Shown here: in pieces, positions 51,983 through 61,400 of the stretch
Layout: every line of letters starts with the position of its first letter
How positions within the stretch are numbered: position 1 is the first letter of the stretch
From: Marinitoga sp. 38H-ov
GTDB taxonomy: Bacteria; Thermotogota; Thermotogae; Petrotogales; Petrotogaceae
DNA: 64,000 bases
Assembly: GCF_011057715.1 (NCBI RefSeq)
Contig: NZ_LNGH01000023.1
Coordinates: 1 to 64,000, forward strand
Direction: 5' to 3'
The notes under the pieces: model-generated
What the model saw: only the letters and a program-made list of their open reading frames with translations
Database searches by the model: none
What the model was told of the DNA's origin: nothing
Program-made: the position numbers and the translations under genes

Positions 51983-54900
51983 ATGAAAATTTCTGATTTT
52001 TTACTTTCAAAATTAGGTTTTGACCCTTTTAATCTTCAAGGAGATATAGAATTAAACAATTTTCTAATTTTAAGACTACATAACCCAATTAATGAAAAAG
52101 AAGAAAGAGATATAAAGAAATTTTTTTCGAGATTAATGAAAATGCCTGTTAAAATTGAATTATCTTCTCATAACAATATTGAATACTTATTGGATAACTG
52201 GATAAATTTAATTAATGGTAGCGACGAAGAAAATTATCTAAGATTTTTAATGCCAGATATTTTAAATAATGAATTAATCTTTAGAGTTTCAAATAAATTT
52301 GCTTTGGAAAGAATGAAAAAAAATAAAAAAGTAATAGAAAATATTTTAGAAAGAAGTTTAGGATTTATACCTAATTATGAATTTATTTTTGATGAAACTC
52401 TTAATATTGATTACTCTGATAATTCTTCAGAGAATGAAACATATATTAATGAAACATATATTATCGATGAGCCAGATAATAATAATAATAATAATAATAC
52501 TTTAACTAATGATAAAAACAATAATGATAGTAAAATTATTTTAGGGAATCCAATTAACAAAGTTTCCATCCCTTTAAATAAATTAAATGAATTTATGTAT
52601 CAAACTCCAAAAGTTGTAGTTGAAGGGACAGTTTTTTATAAAGAATTTAATGATAGAGCCATTATTTTAATAATGTATATAACTGATAATAATGATTCAA
52701 TTACAATTAAAATATTTAAAAATAATGCAGAAATGATTAACAGCAAAATAAAAGAAGGAGATTATATAAAAATTGAAGGTAAAGTAAGTTATGATGAATA
52801 TCAACGAGAATATGTTATTATACCTGATAATATTATGAAAATAGACAAAGTTGACAGAATCGATGATGCTGCGGAAAAAAGAGTTGAATTACATGCTCAT
52901 TCGAAATTCAGTGCTTTAGACTCTGTATTAGATGTTGACGAATTAGTAAAGACTGCTTCAAAATGGGGTCATAAAGCAATTGCTATTACAGATCATGAAG
53001 TAGTTCAGTCAATTCCTACATTTTATAGCTCTGCCAAAAAAAATAACATTAAACCTATTTTTGGTTGTGAAATAAATATAGTTAATAATAAGATTTCAAT
53101 AATAAATAATTTTACTGAAGATATAGATTTTAATTCAAATTTTGTTGTTTTTGACTTTGAAACAACTGGTTTTGATCCAAATATAGAGGAAATAATAGAA
53201 TTTGGTGCTGTTAAAATCGAAAATGGAGAAATTACCGATGTATTTCATAAGCTAGTTAAACCTAAAAAAAACGTTCCACAAAAAATACAAGAAATAACTG
53301 GTATTACTAATGAAATGCTTATTGACGCCCCCTCAATTGATGAAGTTTTACCTGAATTCATAAAATTTATTGAAAATTCAGTTTTAGTTGCTCATAATGC
53401 TAATTTTGATTACAGGTTTTTAAGAAGATGGACAAAAGATGTAATGAATATAGAAATAAAAATACCATATATTGACACATTAGCTATGGCTAGAGCCCTA
53501 TTAAATCTAAGAGGCGGCCATTCTCTTGATAAAGTTGTTAAAGCTCTTGGTTTAGGGAATTTCGAACATCATAGAGCCCATGAAGACGCTAAAGTAACGG
53601 CTTATGCATTTTTAAAATTGTTGGACAAAGCTAAAGGAAGAGGAATTAAAAACATTAATGGCTTAATAAATCTAGAAAAAATGATAGACTTTAAAAAATT
53701 AAGAAAATATCATGCCACTGTTTTAGTAAAAAATAGAACTGGTTTAAAAAATTTGTATAAGCTAATTTCTAAAGCTCATACCGAATATTTCTATAGAGAT
53801 ACTACAGTATTATTAAGTGAATTGCTCGAAAATAGGGAAGGATTATTAATTGGTAGCGGGTGCTCTAAAAATATTATATTTGAAGAATACTCAAAAGGGG
53901 CATCTGATGATGAAATTGATACATTAATTAGTTTATTTGATTATATTGAAATACAGCCTTTAGACAGTGTAGAACATCCTGGAGTAGATAAGGATAAGAT
54001 TAAAGAATTTTTTAAATATTTGTATAAATCAGCAAGCAAATTCAATATACCCATTGTTATGACTAGTAATGCTCATTATTTAAATATTGAAGATAAAAAA
54101 GCACGAGATGCTTTGATTATTGGTTCTGCAACTAAAGGTCAAAAGAAAACTGTATATAATTCTAATAAATACTTTAGAACTACAAATGAAATGTTAGATG
54201 CTGCATATGAAATTTTTGAAGATAAGAATATAGCAAAAGAAATAGTTATAGAAAACACAAATAAAATAGCTGATTTAATAGAAGAAATACAACCTTTAGA
54301 AGGAAAATTACATCCTCCAATAATAGACGGTGCTGATGAAACCGTTAGAGAATTAAGCTGGAAAACTGCAAAAGAAATATATGGTGATCCACTACCTGAA
54401 ATTGTTAGAGCAAGAATAGAAAGAGAGTTAAACTCTATTATTAATCATGGATATGCAGTTTTATATTTAATGGCTCAAAAAATTGTTAAAAAATCTAATG
54501 ATGATGGATATTTGGTAGGTTCAAGGGGTTCTGTTGGTTCTTCTTTAGTTGCCACTATGATGGGAATAACAGAGGTAAATCCACTACCTCCACATTATAT
54601 ATGCCCTGATTGTAAATATAGCGAATTTATAACAGATGGCTCATTTGATTCAGGATATGATTTACCTGATAAAAAATGCCCCAAATGTGGAACAGAATTA
54701 TATAAAAATGGTCAAGATATACCTTTTGAAACATTTATGGGATTTGAAGGAGATAAAGTTCCTGATATTGATTTGAATTTTTCTGGTGAATATCAATCTA
54801 GAGCTCATAAATTTATTGAAGAACTTTTTGGTGCGGATCATGTTTTTAGAGCTGGAACTATTTCTACAGTTGCCGAAAAAACAGCATATGGATATGTAAG

Positions 54901-56194
54901 GAAATACTCAGAAGAAATTGGAGAAGAATTAAAAACTCCAGAGGTTATTAGATTAGCAAAAAAGATAGAAGGTTCAAGGAGAACCACAGGGCAACATCCT
55001 GGAGGATTAATGATCGTCCCTAAAACAATGGATGTGTATGATTTCACACCTGTTCAGTTCCCTGCTAATGATAAAAAAGCAAATACAATGACTACACATT
55101 TTGATTATCACGTAATTCATGACGACTTAGTTAAGTTAGACGCACTTGGACACGATGACCCTACATTTTTAAAAATGTTAAGTGATTTAACAGGAATTGA
55201 ATACAAAAACATAAAAATGGATGATAAAGATACTATGTCTATTTTTTCATCTTCTAAAGTTTTAGGAGTTGACTTAACCTCTGATTTAAAAACAACAGTT
55301 GGAACACTTGGAATCCCAGAATTCGGAACACAATTTGTAAGGGGAATGCTTGAAGAAACTAAACCTAAAACATTTGCTGCATTAGTTAGAATTTCTGGAT
55401 TATCACATGGTACTGATGTGTGGTTAAACAATGCAAGAGATTTAATTGTATCAAAACAAGCAACTGTTGATGAAGTAATTGCATGTCGTGACGATATTAT
55501 GAATTATTTAATTCAAAAAGGATTAGATAAAAAACACTCATTTTTTATCATGGAAAAAGTAAGAAAAGGAAAAGGACTTTCTGATGAAGATGAAGAAGAA
55601 ATGAAAAAAAATAACGTTCCAAATTGGTTTATTAATTCTTGTAAAAAAATAAAATATCTTTTCCCAAAAGCACATGCTGCAGCTTATGTTAGTATGGCAT
55701 TTAGAATTGCTTATTTCAAAGTTCATTATCCTTTAGCCTTTTATGCTACATATTTCTCTGTAAAAGGTGATGAATTTAATACAGAAATTATTCTAAAAGG
55801 CAAAAATGCTATTAGATCTAGAATATTTGAATTAAAATCATTAAAATCTTTAGATGTCAAAGAAAAAAATGAACTTACTGTTTTAGAAATAGCCTATGAA
55901 ATGATATTACGAGGATTTGGTTTTTTACCTCCGGATATATATAAATCCGATGCTAAGAATTTTATTATTGAAGGAAAAAATCTAAGAATACCTTTTATTA
56001 AAGTTCCTAATTTAGGAGAAAAAGCTGCAATTAGTATTCTTGAGGCTAGAAAAGAAAAAGAATTTTTATCAATCGAAGATTTATTAAATAGAACTGGAAT
56101 TAATAAAACTACAATTGAAACATTTAGAAAATTAGGAATGTTAAAAGGTCTTCCAGAAAAAAATCAAGTTAACTTATTTGAAGGTTTAATATAA
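51983..56194 (+). CDS. polC: DNA polymerase III alpha subunit, PolC type
   Basis: Gram-positive-type replicative polymerase of 1403 residues with proofreading. In order: N-terminal domains and an OB fold (about 205-300), PHP domain starting ELHAHSKFSALDSV near 309, DEDD exonuclease starting NFVVFDFETTGFD near 386, PHP continuation, a four-Cys zinc site (CPDCKYSEF and KKCPKCGTE, about 873-905), the catalytic region with VPDIDLNFSGEYQ near 925, and C-terminal helix-hairpin-helix-like parts. A run of seven Asn (AAT repeats near 52480) marks a low-complexity linker at about 165-185. It is preceded by AAAGGAGG and is alone in its transcript. Confidence 0.96.
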   Translation: MKISDFLLSKLGFDPFNLQGDIELNNFLILRLHNPINEKEERDIKKFFSRLMKMPVKIELSSHNNIEYLLDNWINLINGSDEENYLRFLMPDILNNELIFRVSNKFALERMKKNKKVIENILERSLGFIPNYEFIFDETLNIDYSDNSSENETYINETYIIDEPDNNNNNNNTLTNDKNNNDSKIILGNPINKVSIPLNKLNEFMYQTPKVVVEGTVFYKEFNDRAIILIMYITDNNDSITIKIFKNNAEMINSKIKEGDYIKIEGKVSYDEYQREYVIIPDNIMKIDKVDRIDDAAEKRVELHAHSKFSALDSVLDVDELVKTASKWGHKAIAITDHEVVQSIPTFYSSAKKNNIKPIFGCEINIVNNKISIINNFTEDIDFNSNFVVFDFETTGFDPNIEEIIEFGAVKIENGEITDVFHKLVKPKKNVPQKIQEITGITNEMLIDAPSIDEVLPEFIKFIENSVLVAHNANFDYRFLRRWTKDVMNIEIKIPYIDTLAMARALLNLRGGHSLDKVVKALGLGNFEHHRAHEDAKVTAYAFLKLLDKAKGRGIKNINGLINLEKMIDFKKLRKYHATVLVKNRTGLKNLYKLISKAHTEYFYRDTTVLLSELLENREGLLIGSGCSKNIIFEEYSKGASDDEIDTLISLFDYIEIQPLDSVEHPGVDKDKIKEFFKYLYKSASKFNIPIVMTSNAHYLNIEDKKARDALIIGSATKGQKKTVYNSNKYFRTTNEMLDAAYEIFEDKNIAKEIVIENTNKIADLIEEIQPLEGKLHPPIIDGADETVRELSWKTAKEIYGDPLPEIVRARIERELNSIINHGYAVLYLMAQKIVKKSNDDGYLVGSRGSVGSSLVATMMGITEVNPLPPHYICPDCKYSEFITDGSFDSGYDLPDKKCPKCGTELYKNGQDIPFETFMGFEGDKVPDIDLNFSGEYQSRAHKFIEELFGADHVFRAGTISTVAEKTAYGYVRKYSEEIGEELKTPEVIRLAKKIEGSRRTTGQHPGGLMIVPKTMDVYDFTPVQFPANDKKANTMTTHFDYHVIHDDLVKLDALGHDDPTFLKMLSDLTGIEYKNIKMDDKDTMSIFSSSKVLGVDLTSDLKTTVGTLGIPEFGTQFVRGMLEETKPKTFAALVRISGLSHGTDVWLNNARDLIVSKQATVDEVIACRDDIMNYLIQKGLDKKHSFFIMEKVRKGKGLSDEDEEEMKKNNVPNWFINSCKKIKYLFPKAHAAAYVSMAFRIAYFKVHYPLAFYATYFSVKGDEFNTEIILKGKNAIRSRIFELKSLKSLDVKEKNELTVLEIAYEMILRGFGFLPPDIYKSDAKNFIIEGKNLRIPFIKVPNLGEKAAISILEARKEKEFLSIEDLLNRTGINKTTIETFRKLGMLKGLPEKNQVNLFEGLI

Positions 56195-56196
56195 TT

Positions 56197-56228
56197 AGAA
56201 ATCCAGCGCAAAGCTGGATTTCTTTTTT
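56197..56228 (+). terminator. polC terminator
   Basis: An 11-bp stem (AGAAATCCAGC with GCTGGATTTCT) encloses GCAAA and ends in seven Ts, three bases after the polC stop. On the other strand it lies 20 bases beyond the fabD stop and could also end the fab operon, though its minus-strand T-tract is weak. Confidence 0.88.
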
Positions 56229-56246: not shown

Positions 56247-57134
56247 TTATATATTTAAAATACTTTTTGGATTTAAATCTTTATATATTCTTTTTACTAA
56301 ACCAGTCAACACTTTACCAGGACCTATTTCATAAACCGCTGTAACTCCTAATTCTTTCATTTTATTAACACTATCTACCCATTTTACAGTACCTGTTATT
56401 TGATTAATTATATTTTCTTTAATTTTTTCAGGAGTTTCACATATATCCCCTGTATAATTTTGAATAATTTTGTATTTTGGATTTTTAAATTTTATGTCCT
56501 TTAATTCTTCTGCCATTTTTTCCTGTGCGGGTTTAACTAATTTTGAATGAAAAGGACCACTTACATTTAATTCAACAACTTTTTTTGCTCCCTTTTCTTT
56601 TAATAATTCTAATGCTTTAACAACTTCTTTCTTATCACCACTAATAACTATTTGATCTAATGCATTATGATTAGCTATATTAATATTTTCAAATTTATCT
56701 ATAACTTCTCTTACTTTTTCTATATCTAAACCTATTACAGCTCCCATGCCTCCTAAACCTGGAGGACATGCTTCGCTCATATATTTTCCTCTTAATCTAA
56801 CTAATTTTACTCCTTCTTCAAATTTAATTACATCAGATGCTACTAACGCAGTCCATTCACCTAAAGAATGTCCTGCAACTATTTCTGGGTATATGTTTAA
56901 TTTTTCTGTTGCATATAAATACATTATATATGAAATAGTTAATAATGCAGGTTGAGCATTTTCTGTTAAAGTTAATAATTTTTCGTCATCACCATAAATA
57001 ATTGATTTTAAATCAACATTTATCGAATCAGATGCTTTATTTAAATATTCATTATACTCAGGATATTTATCCAATATTTCTTTACCCATTCCTAAAGTTT
57101 GAGAACCTTGTCCAGGAAAAACAAAAGATATCAT
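56247..57134 (-). CDS. fabD: malonyl-CoA:ACP transacylase
   Basis: It has 295 residues and moves malonyl from CoA to acyl carrier protein. Features are FVFPGQGSQTLGMG at 4-17, the catalytic Ser in VAGHSLGEWTALVAS near 90, and the His in NVSGPFHSKL near 195. It overlaps the fabK stop by four bases and is the last gene of the fab operon. No acpP or fabG gene is in the operon. Confidence 0.95.
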   Translation of the reverse strand: MISFVFPGQGSQTLGMGKEILDKYPEYNEYLNKASDSINVDLKSIIYGDDEKLLTLTENAQPALLTISYIMYLYATEKLNIYPEIVAGHSLGEWTALVASDVIKFEEGVKLVRLRGKYMSEACPPGLGGMGAVIGLDIEKVREVIDKFENINIANHNALDQIVISGDKKEVVKALELLKEKGAKKVVELNVSGPFHSKLVKPAQEKMAEELKDIKFKNPKYKIIQNYTGDICETPEKIKENIINQITGTVKWVDSVNKMKELGVTAVYEIGPGKVLTGLVKRIYKDLNPKSILNI

Positions 57135-58033
57135 TTTAACACCTCTTTTCCAAATTCTTCAATTATTTCTTTTACACTTTTAATTTCATTTATTAAGCCC
57201 GCGCTTTGTCCTGCCATAAAAGAACCATTTTCTAAATCTCCATATAAAAATGCTTTTTTTAAACTCCCTACTAACATTTCTTCAGCTTCTTCTGGAGAGT
57301 TTAATTCTAAACTTTTTATTTTTTTAGCAAATTTTGTTTTTATTACTCTTGCAGGATGACCAATTGTAGCTCCAGTGACTATTGCATCTCTAATTCCCGC
57401 CTTTAAAATAAGATTTTTATAGTTTTCATGTGCTTCACACTCATATGTTGCTATAAATCTCGTTCCCATTTGAATTCCTTCAGCTCCCAATTCAAAAGCA
57501 GCTTTCATACCTCTTATATCTGCTATTCCACCTGCAGCAATTACTGGAACTTTTAAAACATCAACCAACTTAGGTATTAATACCATTGTCGATACATCAC
57601 CAATATGACCTCCACATTCCATACCTTCACCTATAATTGCATCAACACCTATTTTTTCAAGTCTTATTGCCAAATTTTCAGAAGATACTACAGCTAATAC
57701 TTTTATATCTTTTTCTTTTAAAGATTTAATATATTTACCAGGATTACCTGCTCCAAATATAACTATAGGAACATTTTCTCTTTTTACTATTTCAACTAAT
57801 TCATCGGCATATGGATTTACTAATATAATATTTACAGCAAACGGCTTATCTGTTAATTCTTTTATAGCTTTTATAGCATTTTTTAATATATCTGGGGTCA
57901 TACTTCCGGCACCAATAGTCCCTAATCCTCCAGCTTCTGAAACAGCTGCTGCTAATTTAGCAGTACCAACCCATGCCATTCCACCCTCTAATATTGGATA
58001 TTTTATTCCAAGTAATCTGGTTATTCTATTCAT
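57131..58033 (-). CDS. fabK: enoyl-ACP reductase II (FabK), flavin-dependent
   Basis: It has 300 residues, TIM-barrel FMN protein of the FabK/nitronate monooxygenase family. The N-terminus ITRLLGIKYPILEGGMAWVG and the central GEGMECGGHIGD (with the conserved His) match FabK; AAGGIADIRGMKAAFELGA is the phosphate-binding part. The location in a fatty-acid operon makes enoyl reduction much more likely than nitronate oxidation. It overlaps fabH-like by eight bases and fabD by four. Confidence 0.92.
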   Translation of the reverse strand: MNRITRLLGIKYPILEGGMAWVGTAKLAAAVSEAGGLGTIGAGSMTPDILKNAIKAIKELTDKPFAVNIILVNPYADELVEIVKRENVPIVIFGAGNPGKYIKSLKEKDIKVLAVVSSENLAIRLEKIGVDAIIGEGMECGGHIGDVSTMVLIPKLVDVLKVPVIAAGGIADIRGMKAAFELGAEGIQMGTRFIATYECEAHENYKNLILKAGIRDAIVTGATIGHPARVIKTKFAKKIKSLELNSPEEAEEMLVGSLKKAFLYGDLENGSFMAGQSAGLINEIKSVKEIIEEFGKEVLK

Positions 58034-58907
58034 TATTGCACCTCCAGGTAATACCTGATGTTGTCATTCCTCCACCTACAGATATTAATAAATATTTTTT
58101 TAGATCGATTTTTTTATTACCAAATGTTTTATACATTGTTAATGGAATACTTGCTGCTCCTGTATTTCCATAATCTTCTATAATATCTAAAAATTCTACA
58201 TCATTAAAACTACTCTTAACACTTTCTAAAATTCTCTTATTAGCTTGATGCGGAATGATAATTTTATCATTATAATCATTTAAATAATCTCTTATCATCT
58301 TTTTCATATTACTAACAGCAAATTTATAGACTCTTTTTCCATCCATTATTATCTTTTTATCTTCATTTATATTTAACGCATCTAAATACTCACTATCATA
58401 TATTACTCTATGATCACATATAATATCATCTTTATTTTCCAATATCAATGCTACTGCCGCATCAGAAAATAATATCGATGTATTTATATCGTTTTTATCT
58501 ACAAGATCAGATAATTTCTCTGATATTACTATTAATATTTTATTTGCTATTTTTTCTCTAAACATAACATCGGCTATATGCATTGATGTTACAAAACCTA
58601 CAAAACCATTTGATACATCAATACCATATCTTAGTTTGTTTATATTTAGCTTTTCATACATTCTAACGTAGTAAGGAACATAATGCGCTCCAATTGAAGA
58701 TACAAATAGTATTGTATCAACATCTTTTAAATCTAATTTTTCAGCAGCTTTTACCCCCATTTGAAATACATCTATATTAGAAATATATCTATTTTTTATT
58801 CCTGTTCTTTTTAAAATCCATTCTTCTGAAACATTAAATCTTTTTGCTAATGTTTCATTATCCAAAATATATTCAGGAATATATGCATTTATTTGAGTAA
58901 TATACAT
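58026..58907 (-). CDS. fabH: KASIII (FabH)-like protein lacking the catalytic cysteine
   Basis: Beta-ketoacyl-ACP synthase III homologue, 293 residues, slightly short. The fold markers NETLAKRFNVSEEWILKRTG (about 17-36) are normal. At the active site, E. coli FabH has DVAAACAGF with the nucleophile Cys; here the aligned stretch is DVSNGFVGF (97-105), so Phe102 replaces Cys. The other two catalytic residues remain: His220 in PHQANKR and Asn248 in YGNTGAAS. Without Cys it cannot form the acyl-enzyme, so a decarboxylase-type role supplying the primer, or a structural role, is more likely than condensation. The DNA codons confirm TTT at that position. Confidence 0.85.
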   Translation of the reverse strand: MYITQINAYIPEYILDNETLAKRFNVSEEWILKRTGIKNRYISNIDVFQMGVKAAEKLDLKDVDTILFVSSIGAHYVPYYVRMYEKLNINKLRYGIDVSNGFVGFVTSMHIADVMFREKIANKILIVISEKLSDLVDKNDINTSILFSDAAVALILENKDDIICDHRVIYDSEYLDALNINEDKKIIMDGKRVYKFAVSNMKKMIRDYLNDYNDKIIIPHQANKRILESVKSSFNDVEFLDIIEDYGNTGAASIPLTMYKTFGNKKIDLKKYLLISVGGGMTTSGITWRCNNE

Positions 58908-58908
58908 T

Positions 58909-59328
58909 TTATCCCCTCTTTATTCCAACCATTAATTCTGCACTTGCAACTAATTTATCTTCCACTTTAGCTATTCCATTTACCTTATACATCCCCATTT
59001 TTTCTTGCAGAATCTCTACTTCATATATTAGTTTATCTCCAGGTCTAACTTCTTTTTTAAATCTTGCTTTGTCTATCCCTAAAAATAATGGAATAGATCC
59101 TTCTTTTATATCTTTCATCAAAAGTATTCCTGCAGTTTGTGCTAATCCTTCTATTATTAATACTCCTGGCATAATTGGATAATCAGGAAAATGACCTTTA
59201 AAATGAGGTTCATTTATACTGACATTTTTATATGCAATTATTTTTTTTTCTTGAATATCAATTACACCTTCTACTAATAAAAATGGATATCTATGAGGTA
59301 ATATCCTCATTATTTCATCTATTCCCAT
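58909..59328 (-). CDS. fabZ: 3-hydroxyacyl-ACP dehydratase
   Basis: It has 139 residues with a hot-dog fold. HRYPFLLVEGVI near 12 and FPDYPIMPGVLIIEGLAQ near 48 contain the catalytic His and Glu. It dehydrates 3-hydroxyacyl-ACP in elongation. GGGGTGAT precedes the start, which lies ten bases inside the end of degV. It is followed one base later by the KASIII-like gene. Confidence 0.95.
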   Translation of the reverse strand: MGIDEIMRILPHRYPFLLVEGVIDIQEKKIIAYKNVSINEPHFKGHFPDYPIMPGVLIIEGLAQTAGILLMKDIKEGSIPLFLGIDKARFKKEVRPGDKLIYEVEILQEKMGMYKVNGIAKVEDKLVASAELMVGIKRG

Positions 59329-60170: not shown

Positions 60171-61400
60171 TTATATACCCCTATACACAATAGAAACATT
60201 ATGTCCTCCAAATCCAAAAGAATTTTTTATAGCATATTCTGCTTTATATTCTATTGTTTCTCTTGGAATATTTAAATCATTTAACTCATCATCAATATTT
60301 TCTAGATTTGGCATACCGTGAATAAAGCCTTCTTTCATTTGCAGAATCATACCTACAAATTCTATCGCTGCTGCTGCACCTAATCCGTGTCCAAATAATG
60401 TTTTTGAACCTTGAATGTATATTTTTTTTGCATGTTCTCCAAGTGCTGATCTTAATGCTCTTGTTTCTGCAACATCTCCAGCTGGCGTTGAAGTTGCGTG
60501 ACAATTCGCTAAATCAATTTTTTCTGGAGAGATATTTGCATCTTTTAAAGCAATTTGAATTGCTCTAGCAGCACCTTTTCCTTCTTCATCTGGAGCACTA
60601 ATGTGATAAGCATCGCCAGTCATACCAAATCCTTCAATATATCCATATATATTTGCATCTCTTTTTTTTGCATGTTCTTCCGATTCTAAAATTATTACCC
60701 CTGAACCCTCACCCATCACAAAACCATCTCTATCTTTATCAAATGGTCTTGATGCACCTTTTGGATCATCATTCCTAGTTGATAATGCTCTCATATTTGC
60801 AAACGCTGCTATTGGCATTGGATCAATTGTAGCTTCTGCTCCACCAACTATTGCTACATCTATATATCCATGTCTTATTAACATACTTCCAATTGCTATA
60901 GCATGTAAAGAAGAAGCACATGCACTTACTGTATTAAAATTTGGACCTTTTAATCCAAATTCTATAGAAACAACACCTGAGGCCATATCTGATATCATCA
61001 TAGGAATTAAAAAAGGACTAACAACTTTAGGACCTTTTTTTTCCATTTTTTCAAATTCTTGGTATAATGTTTTAAATCCTCCTATACCTGATGCAACAAT
61101 TACAGCAGCATTTTCTTTCCATTCACCATCACCCAATTTACTATCTTCTAACGCTTCTTTAGTTGCAGCTATGGCAAATTGCAAAAATCTATCATACCTT
61201 TTTGCAGTTTTTTTATCCATATATAATGTTGGATCAAAATCCTTTACTTCTGCTGCAATTTTAACCTTATGATCATTTGTATCAAATTGTGTAATATAAT
61301 CTATTCCTATTTTCATTTTTCTCAAACTTTCTTTAAATTCCTCTTTTGACTTAGCTATTGAATTAATTGTACCTAAACCAGTTACTACTACTTTATTCAT
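60171..61400 (-). CDS. fabF: beta-ketoacyl-ACP synthase II
   Basis: It has 409 residues, thiolase fold. The catalytic triad is present: Cys in VSACASSLHAI near 163, His in CHATSTPAGD near 300 and His in LFGHGLGAAAA near 335. It performs elongation. It is the first gene of the operon, with AGAAGGAGG upstream and a dyad-bearing promoter region at 61466. Since the KASIII-like protein lacks Cys, FabF may be the only condensing enzyme encoded here. Confidence 0.96.
   Translation of the reverse strand: MNKVVVTGLGTINSIAKSKEEFKESLRKMKIGIDYITQFDTNDHKVKIAAEVKDFDPTLYMDKKTAKRYDRFLQFAIAATKEALEDSKLGDGEWKENAAVIVASGIGGFKTLYQEFEKMEKKGPKVVSPFLIPMMISDMASGVVSIEFGLKGPNFNTVSACASSLHAIAIGSMLIRHGYIDVAIVGGAEATIDPMPIAAFANMRALSTRNDDPKGASRPFDKDRDGFVMGEGSGVIILESEEHAKKRDANIYGYIEGFGMTGDAYHISAPDEEGKGAARAIQIALKDANISPEKIDLANCHATSTPAGDVAETRALRSALGEHAKKIYIQGSKTLFGHGLGAAAAIEFVGMILQMKEGFIHGMPNLENIDDELNDLNIPRETIEYKAEYAIKNSFGFGGHNVSIVYRGI

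Follow-up and report, generated by a model that had tools for sequence, protein, structure and literature searches.

A FabH ortholog with phenylalanine in place of the catalytic cysteine in the fab operon of Marinitoga sp. 38H-ov: a possible malonyl-ACP decarboxylase

The window considered here is a 64,000-nt stretch of Marinitoga sp. 38H-ov DNA (contig NZ_LNGH01000023.1, positions 1 to 64,000). It contains a reverse-strand fatty acid synthesis operon running from 61400 down to 56247 in the order fabF-degV-fabZ-fabH(Phe)-fabK-fabD, with neighboring genes overlapping or separated by gaps of 1–12 bp. Apart from its fabH gene the operon is normal, as the first-pass annotation had it. The features are:

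60171–61400, reverse strand: fabF (KAS II), with a normal Cys (SACASS), the sole ketoacyl-synt (PF00109) protein of the genome
59319–60158, reverse strand: gene for a DegV/FakB-like fatty-acid-binding protein
58909–59328, reverse strand: fabZ dehydratase
58026–58907, reverse strand: Phe-type FabH (KASIII), in which Phe102 replaces the catalytic Cys and His220 and Asn248 are retained
58596–58613, reverse strand: codons of the nucleophile motif, residues 99–104 (S-N-G-F102-V-G), the TTT of Phe102 being at 58602–58604
57131–58033, reverse strand: fabK-type enoyl-ACP reductase (at 431.9 bits, slightly short of the 453.1 required by NCBIfam)
56247–57134, reverse strand: fabD malonyl-CoA:ACP transacylase, the last gene of the operon
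56197–56223, no strand assigned: terminator-like hairpin in the interval between fabD and a convergent polC-like gene (a consensus match only)

The convergent gene (51983–56194) encodes a PolC-like DNA polymerase whose N-terminal part has a low-complexity tract rich in Asn. A DegV/FakB-like gene lies between fabF and fabZ in many related fab operons; the protein encoded here scores 165.7 bits, far short of the 350 required for FakB1. The fab operon of families f8, f10, and f11 also includes a gene for a small membrane protein like the biotin transporter BioY, recognized by eye (L183:7764–8273, L185:7856–8359, L189:5520–6023, and L138:6821–7360).

The fabH(Phe) ORF is uninterrupted from its ATG start and encodes 293 amino acids. 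Among Pfam families its product matches only those of KASIII (ACP_syn_III and ACP_syn_III_C), and HMMER aligned it along its length with solved FabHs, placing the nucleophile stretch without gaps opposite "fdisaacsgf". In an alignment including E. coli FabH (reference sequence checked against PDB 1hn9), C112 corresponds to F102, H244 to H220, and N274 to N248, in agreement with the residues originally proposed from the sequence. An AlphaFold2 model built with 47 homologs has the FabH fold (pLDDT 93.9) and superposes on FabH crystal structures with Z of 35–37. The protein thus has the KASIII fold and the full-length homology expected of a FabH, but of the Cys-His-Asn triad only His and Asn are present, with Phe for Cys, and its scores fall below the curated cut-offs (181.7 of 249 bits for TIGR00747 and 167.5 of 292.1 for PRK09352). 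With a defining feature missing, the Phe type ought not to be classed as a working FabH.

Phe-type FabHs were found in 12 genomes: seven of one genus, one of a sister genus, and four from two further families. Within the genus, all seven genes have 293 codons, with TTT at position 102. The G004 protein is 80% identical to that of 38H-ov, and the sister-genus protein (G007) 59%; that of G041, from another family, is 44% identical, with the nucleophile stretch DIMDGFNGF; and those of G043, G049, and G053, from one further family, are 28–33% identical, with D-I-x-G-G-F. His and Asn are invariant in all 12, down to ~30% identity. By comparison, Cys is at the nucleophile position in each of 94 Cys-type FabHs, 14 from the same phylum (Thermotogota) and 80 from other phyla. 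In contig scans outside the phylum, the protein query gave no match, and the loci listed for the alignment query, at least 80, all have Cys, though Phe-types may exist elsewhere. The replacement is conserved, as a comparison of KASIII homologs had been expected to decide, but lineage-specific. Purifying selection on the gene is strong, with a mean dN/dS of 0.12 in the genus; its dN relative to two congeners (0.13–0.19) is near those of fabD and degV (0.14–0.16 each). A sequencing error, already considered unlikely in the first-pass annotation, is refuted by the identical codon in seven genomes, and the presence of Phe in 12 of 12 genomes, the low dN/dS, and the location of the gene inside a fab operon all argue the same way.

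The nucleophile is not the only residue to have changed. Six positions set all Phe-types apart from nearly all Cys-types (in E. coli numbering, V78F, A90Y, C112F, S276G, F304V, and F308M/I), and a further normally fixed residue, G158, is Ser or Ala. Several of these changes are at the catalytic center, since S276 is two residues from Asn274 and docking work places Phe304 on the wall of the FabH active-site tunnel (PMC6897290). The combined exchange of Cys and Phe for Phe and Val looks volume-conserving, judging from the residues involved. The position of E. coli Arg151, the residue that stacks on the CoA adenine, is Ile, Val, or Pro in all 12 Phe-types and Arg or Lys in nearly all Cys-types; the loss is not specific to Phe-types, however, because Cys-type FabHs in family f5 are without this Arg as well. 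W32, R36, and N247 are invariant in Phe-types, and of the ACP contacts, K214 is Lys or Arg throughout and R249 is kept in ten, the other two having Lys. This is the pattern that would be expected for intake of an ACP-bound substrate with no need for acetyl-CoA. On the evidence of these alignments, the defining FabH residue has been lost throughout the lineage, in a real and conserved change that retained the decarboxylation residues and was accompanied by other changes in the active site.

Across 103 genomes of the phylum, FabK matches were found in all, Phe-FabH in 12, and another FabH-level match in 18, of which the 14 inspected all have Cys. In the other 73, remote KASIII paralogs are all that is present, or there are none. 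No YiiD_C domain was found in any of the 103, and Thermotoga maritima, one of the control genomes, had neither a PF08541 nor a YiiD_C match. Sixteen FabH-less operons were read, and in 15, of which one is truncated where its contig stops, the slot is empty, with fabK following fabZ, or fabF where fabZ is out of line; in the other (G026), fabZ is on the opposite strand beside fabK. The same operon slot thus occurs in three states across the phylum: with Cys-FabH, with Phe-FabH, and empty. Of 12 remote KASIII matches inspected in FabH-less relatives, 11 are of the PRK06840 or NASCANGAL/FTQ type, and only the one from G039 has a C-H-N triad. The NASCANGAL proteins (L194, L196, L201, and L203, in f3, f10, and f11) are a second KASIII paralog family, named here for the sequence at the nucleophile; they have FTQ where FabH has PHQ, so that the catalytic His is apparently replaced.

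In a tree of FabF, FabK, FabD, and FabZ, 22 operons group together with 100/100 support: those with Phe-FabH and, with a single exception, those without FabH. The group includes no Cys-FabH operon, and the Phe-types occur at three places within it, interleaved with empty slots. A quick KASIII tree put the Phe-types on one branch (support 66), while a more careful one without columns 102 and 277 gave two Phe groups, with a single clade not rejected (p-AU 0.48). The simplest reading is a Phe-FabH in the ancestor followed by repeated loss. Transfer or two origins of the Phe are also possible, because a single Phe clade is neither recovered nor rejected by the KASIII tree. The Kosmotoga fab operon, which includes FabH, is reported to be a separate acquisition (PMC5674127), and the order FabH-FabK-FabD-ACP in G023 is the one reported for Kosmotoga.

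The 38H-ov genome (2.26 Mb, 99.96% complete) encodes one PF00109 ketosynthase, two acyl carrier proteins (one of them at C9:52945–53166), and one carboxyltransferase. The ketosynthase is FabF, so that, as had been supposed, a normal enzyme is available for the first condensation. The search for a second, Cys-bearing FabH gave none of the C-H-N kind. The one candidate (contig C2 of the genome, L001:735–1748) was rejected, as it scores 474 bits against PRK06840 (cut-off 315) and has His for Asn. It keeps Cys and His, lies between a thiolase gene and one like those for acyl-CoA:acetate CoA-transferases, and belongs to a type widespread in the phylum. With a single PF00109 ketosynthase and the other KASIII of this C-H-H type, condensation in fatty acid synthesis falls to FabF. 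A domain search of the genome also found no YiiD_C (MadA/MadB-type) decarboxylase, and nothing else in it is a candidate initiator of a known kind. Another contig (G000:C44:7418–8689) carries the gene of a further, distant FabK-like protein, with a gene for a second acyl carrier protein immediately after it; G011 and G010 have a comparable pair behind their fab operons.

Several known systems resemble the Phe-type protein in part. It is like FabH in fold, length, the His-Asn pair, the PHQAN and GNTxAAS motifs, and its slot between fabZ and fabK, but differs in having Phe for Cys and no Arg151, as well as F304V and the other changes. The KSQ and KSS domains of type I polyketide synthases, which decarboxylate to make a starter, have likewise lost the active Cys and kept the other two catalytic residues. 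They belong to the KAS I/II type (C-H-H), carry Gln or Ser, and are found in loading modules of multienzymes, whereas the Phe-type is a free-standing KASIII with Phe at this position, encoded in a housekeeping fatty acid operon, and has no match to PF00109. MadA and MadB (YiiD_C) prime synthesis without FabH by converting malonyl-ACP to acetyl-ACP, the very reaction proposed here, but they have an unrelated hot-dog fold with a catalytic Asn, and the Phe-type has no YiiD_C domain. PqsB, like the Phe-type, is a KASIII-family protein without the catalytic Cys. It works only as a heterodimer with PqsC, for which there is no corresponding partner gene in the operon, and it has lost all three triad residues (PMC4807248), unlike the Phe-types. 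Most likely, then, the Phe-type works in the manner of a KSQ-type decarboxylase with no membership in that family.

The chances appear about even that the protein is such a malonyl-ACP decarboxylase, forming acetyl-ACP that primes FabF. The fuller proposal, that Cys-to-Phe and co-adapted neighboring changes turned a FabH in situ into a dedicated decarboxylase priming housekeeping synthesis through FabF, in a phylum without YiiD_C decarboxylases and mostly without FabH, is more tentative and somewhat less probable. In such a scheme a FabH ortholog in the usual fabH slot would have become a decarboxylase through loss of its acyl-accepting cysteine. His220 and Asn248 would polarize the malonyl thioester carbonyl and stabilize the enolate after loss of CO2, as in FabH, and Phe102 and the compensating F304V-type change would occupy the acetyl-Cys space, with Phe102 perhaps imitating the acylated enzyme permanently. 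With that place filled there would be no acyl-enzyme to attack, so the enolate would be protonated, giving acetyl-ACP, from which FabF may then take the acetyl group and condense it with malonyl-ACP.

A decarboxylase is preferred for three reasons from the literature: in FabH itself, His244 and Asn274 stabilize the enolate left after CO2 departs from malonyl-ACP (PMC10054515); E. coli FabH without acetyl-CoA decarboxylates malonyl-CoA, with a hysteresis that acetyl-CoA relieves (PMC9979976); and ketosynthases with Cys changed to Ser or Gln keep decarboxylation while condensation is reduced or lost (PMC12843615, citing Witkowski 1999). The invariance of His and Asn also favors it, since simple loss of function would free both, as in PqsB. 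So do the purifying selection, the six changes shared by all Phe-types, the replacement of Arg151 alongside retained ACP contacts, and the lack of another known type of initiator in the genome. No characterized precedent for Phe at a ketosynthase nucleophile, or for a Cys-to-Phe KASIII, was found in the open literature. The known decarboxylating ketosynthases have Gln or Ser there, and the bulk of Phe102 could block the malonyl site, which would count against a decarboxylase, as do the changes at the usually fixed G158 and F304 and the lack of specificity of the Arg151 loss. The estimate is held near even because the FabH-less relatives imply that FabF or some other starter can act unaided. 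The original suggestion that this operon starts fatty acid synthesis by decarboxylation is consistent with the single normal FabF and the lack of a second Cys-FabH or a YiiD_C protein, but the part giving the Phe protein the role of initiator is weakened: as many relatives have the same operon without any FabH, FabH-independent initiation is possible in the phylum, there is no proven need for the Phe protein, and it may be a helper in initiation, not its only agent.

The leading alternative is a pseudo-FabH without catalytic activity. It would bind ACP or malonyl-ACP and act as a sensor, a scaffold, or a regulator of the fab enzymes, or form part of a mixed dimer, and FabF alone would start synthesis by a side reaction. 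Elongation synthases can indeed supply acetyl-ACP through side reactions (PMC13372179), most of the phylum lacks FabH, close relatives lack Phe-FabH, and the Phe-types of f1 and f6 are on a long branch. We nevertheless consider this less likely than a decarboxylase, given that the Phe-types keep the two residues that a non-catalytic partner such as PqsB has lost and that the genome has no partner KASIII of the C-H-N kind. Less probable again is some other Cys-independent reaction: a non-covalent acyl transfer or condensation, in which a malonyl-ACP enolate activated by His220 and Asn248 would attack a non-covalently bound donor (for example acyl-ACP), or a thioester would be hydrolyzed. Conservation of the fold, the His-Asn pair, and most ACP and pantetheine residues would suit it, as would the remodeling of the active site at several positions, but a CoA donor is hard to reconcile with the missing Arg151, and we know of no characterized KASIII that condenses without Cys. 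A decaying gene, caught before loss because FabH is no longer needed, would fit the many empty slots interleaved with Phe-FabH on the operon tree, yet seems improbable for a gene with such a low dN/dS, full length in all 12 genomes of four genus or family groups, and an invariant His and Asn. Least credible is a normal condensing FabH with another nucleophile, or a sequencing error, for which no favorable point was found: no other conserved Cys or Ser takes the place of the lost Cys, the protein's Cys residues near 168 and 290 being absent from the f8 relatives.

The Phe-type FabH bears on the question of how fatty acid synthesis starts in bacteria without a canonical FabH, and the three states of a single operon slot make that question tractable with one purified, probably thermostable, protein. 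It also illustrates how automatic "FabH" labels can mask loss of the defining reaction. If the protein is a decarboxylase, it would represent a new way to begin fatty acid synthesis: the polyketide KSQ starter would have a free-standing counterpart derived from KASIII, and acetyl-ACP priming would have evolved by a second route beside MadA/MadB.
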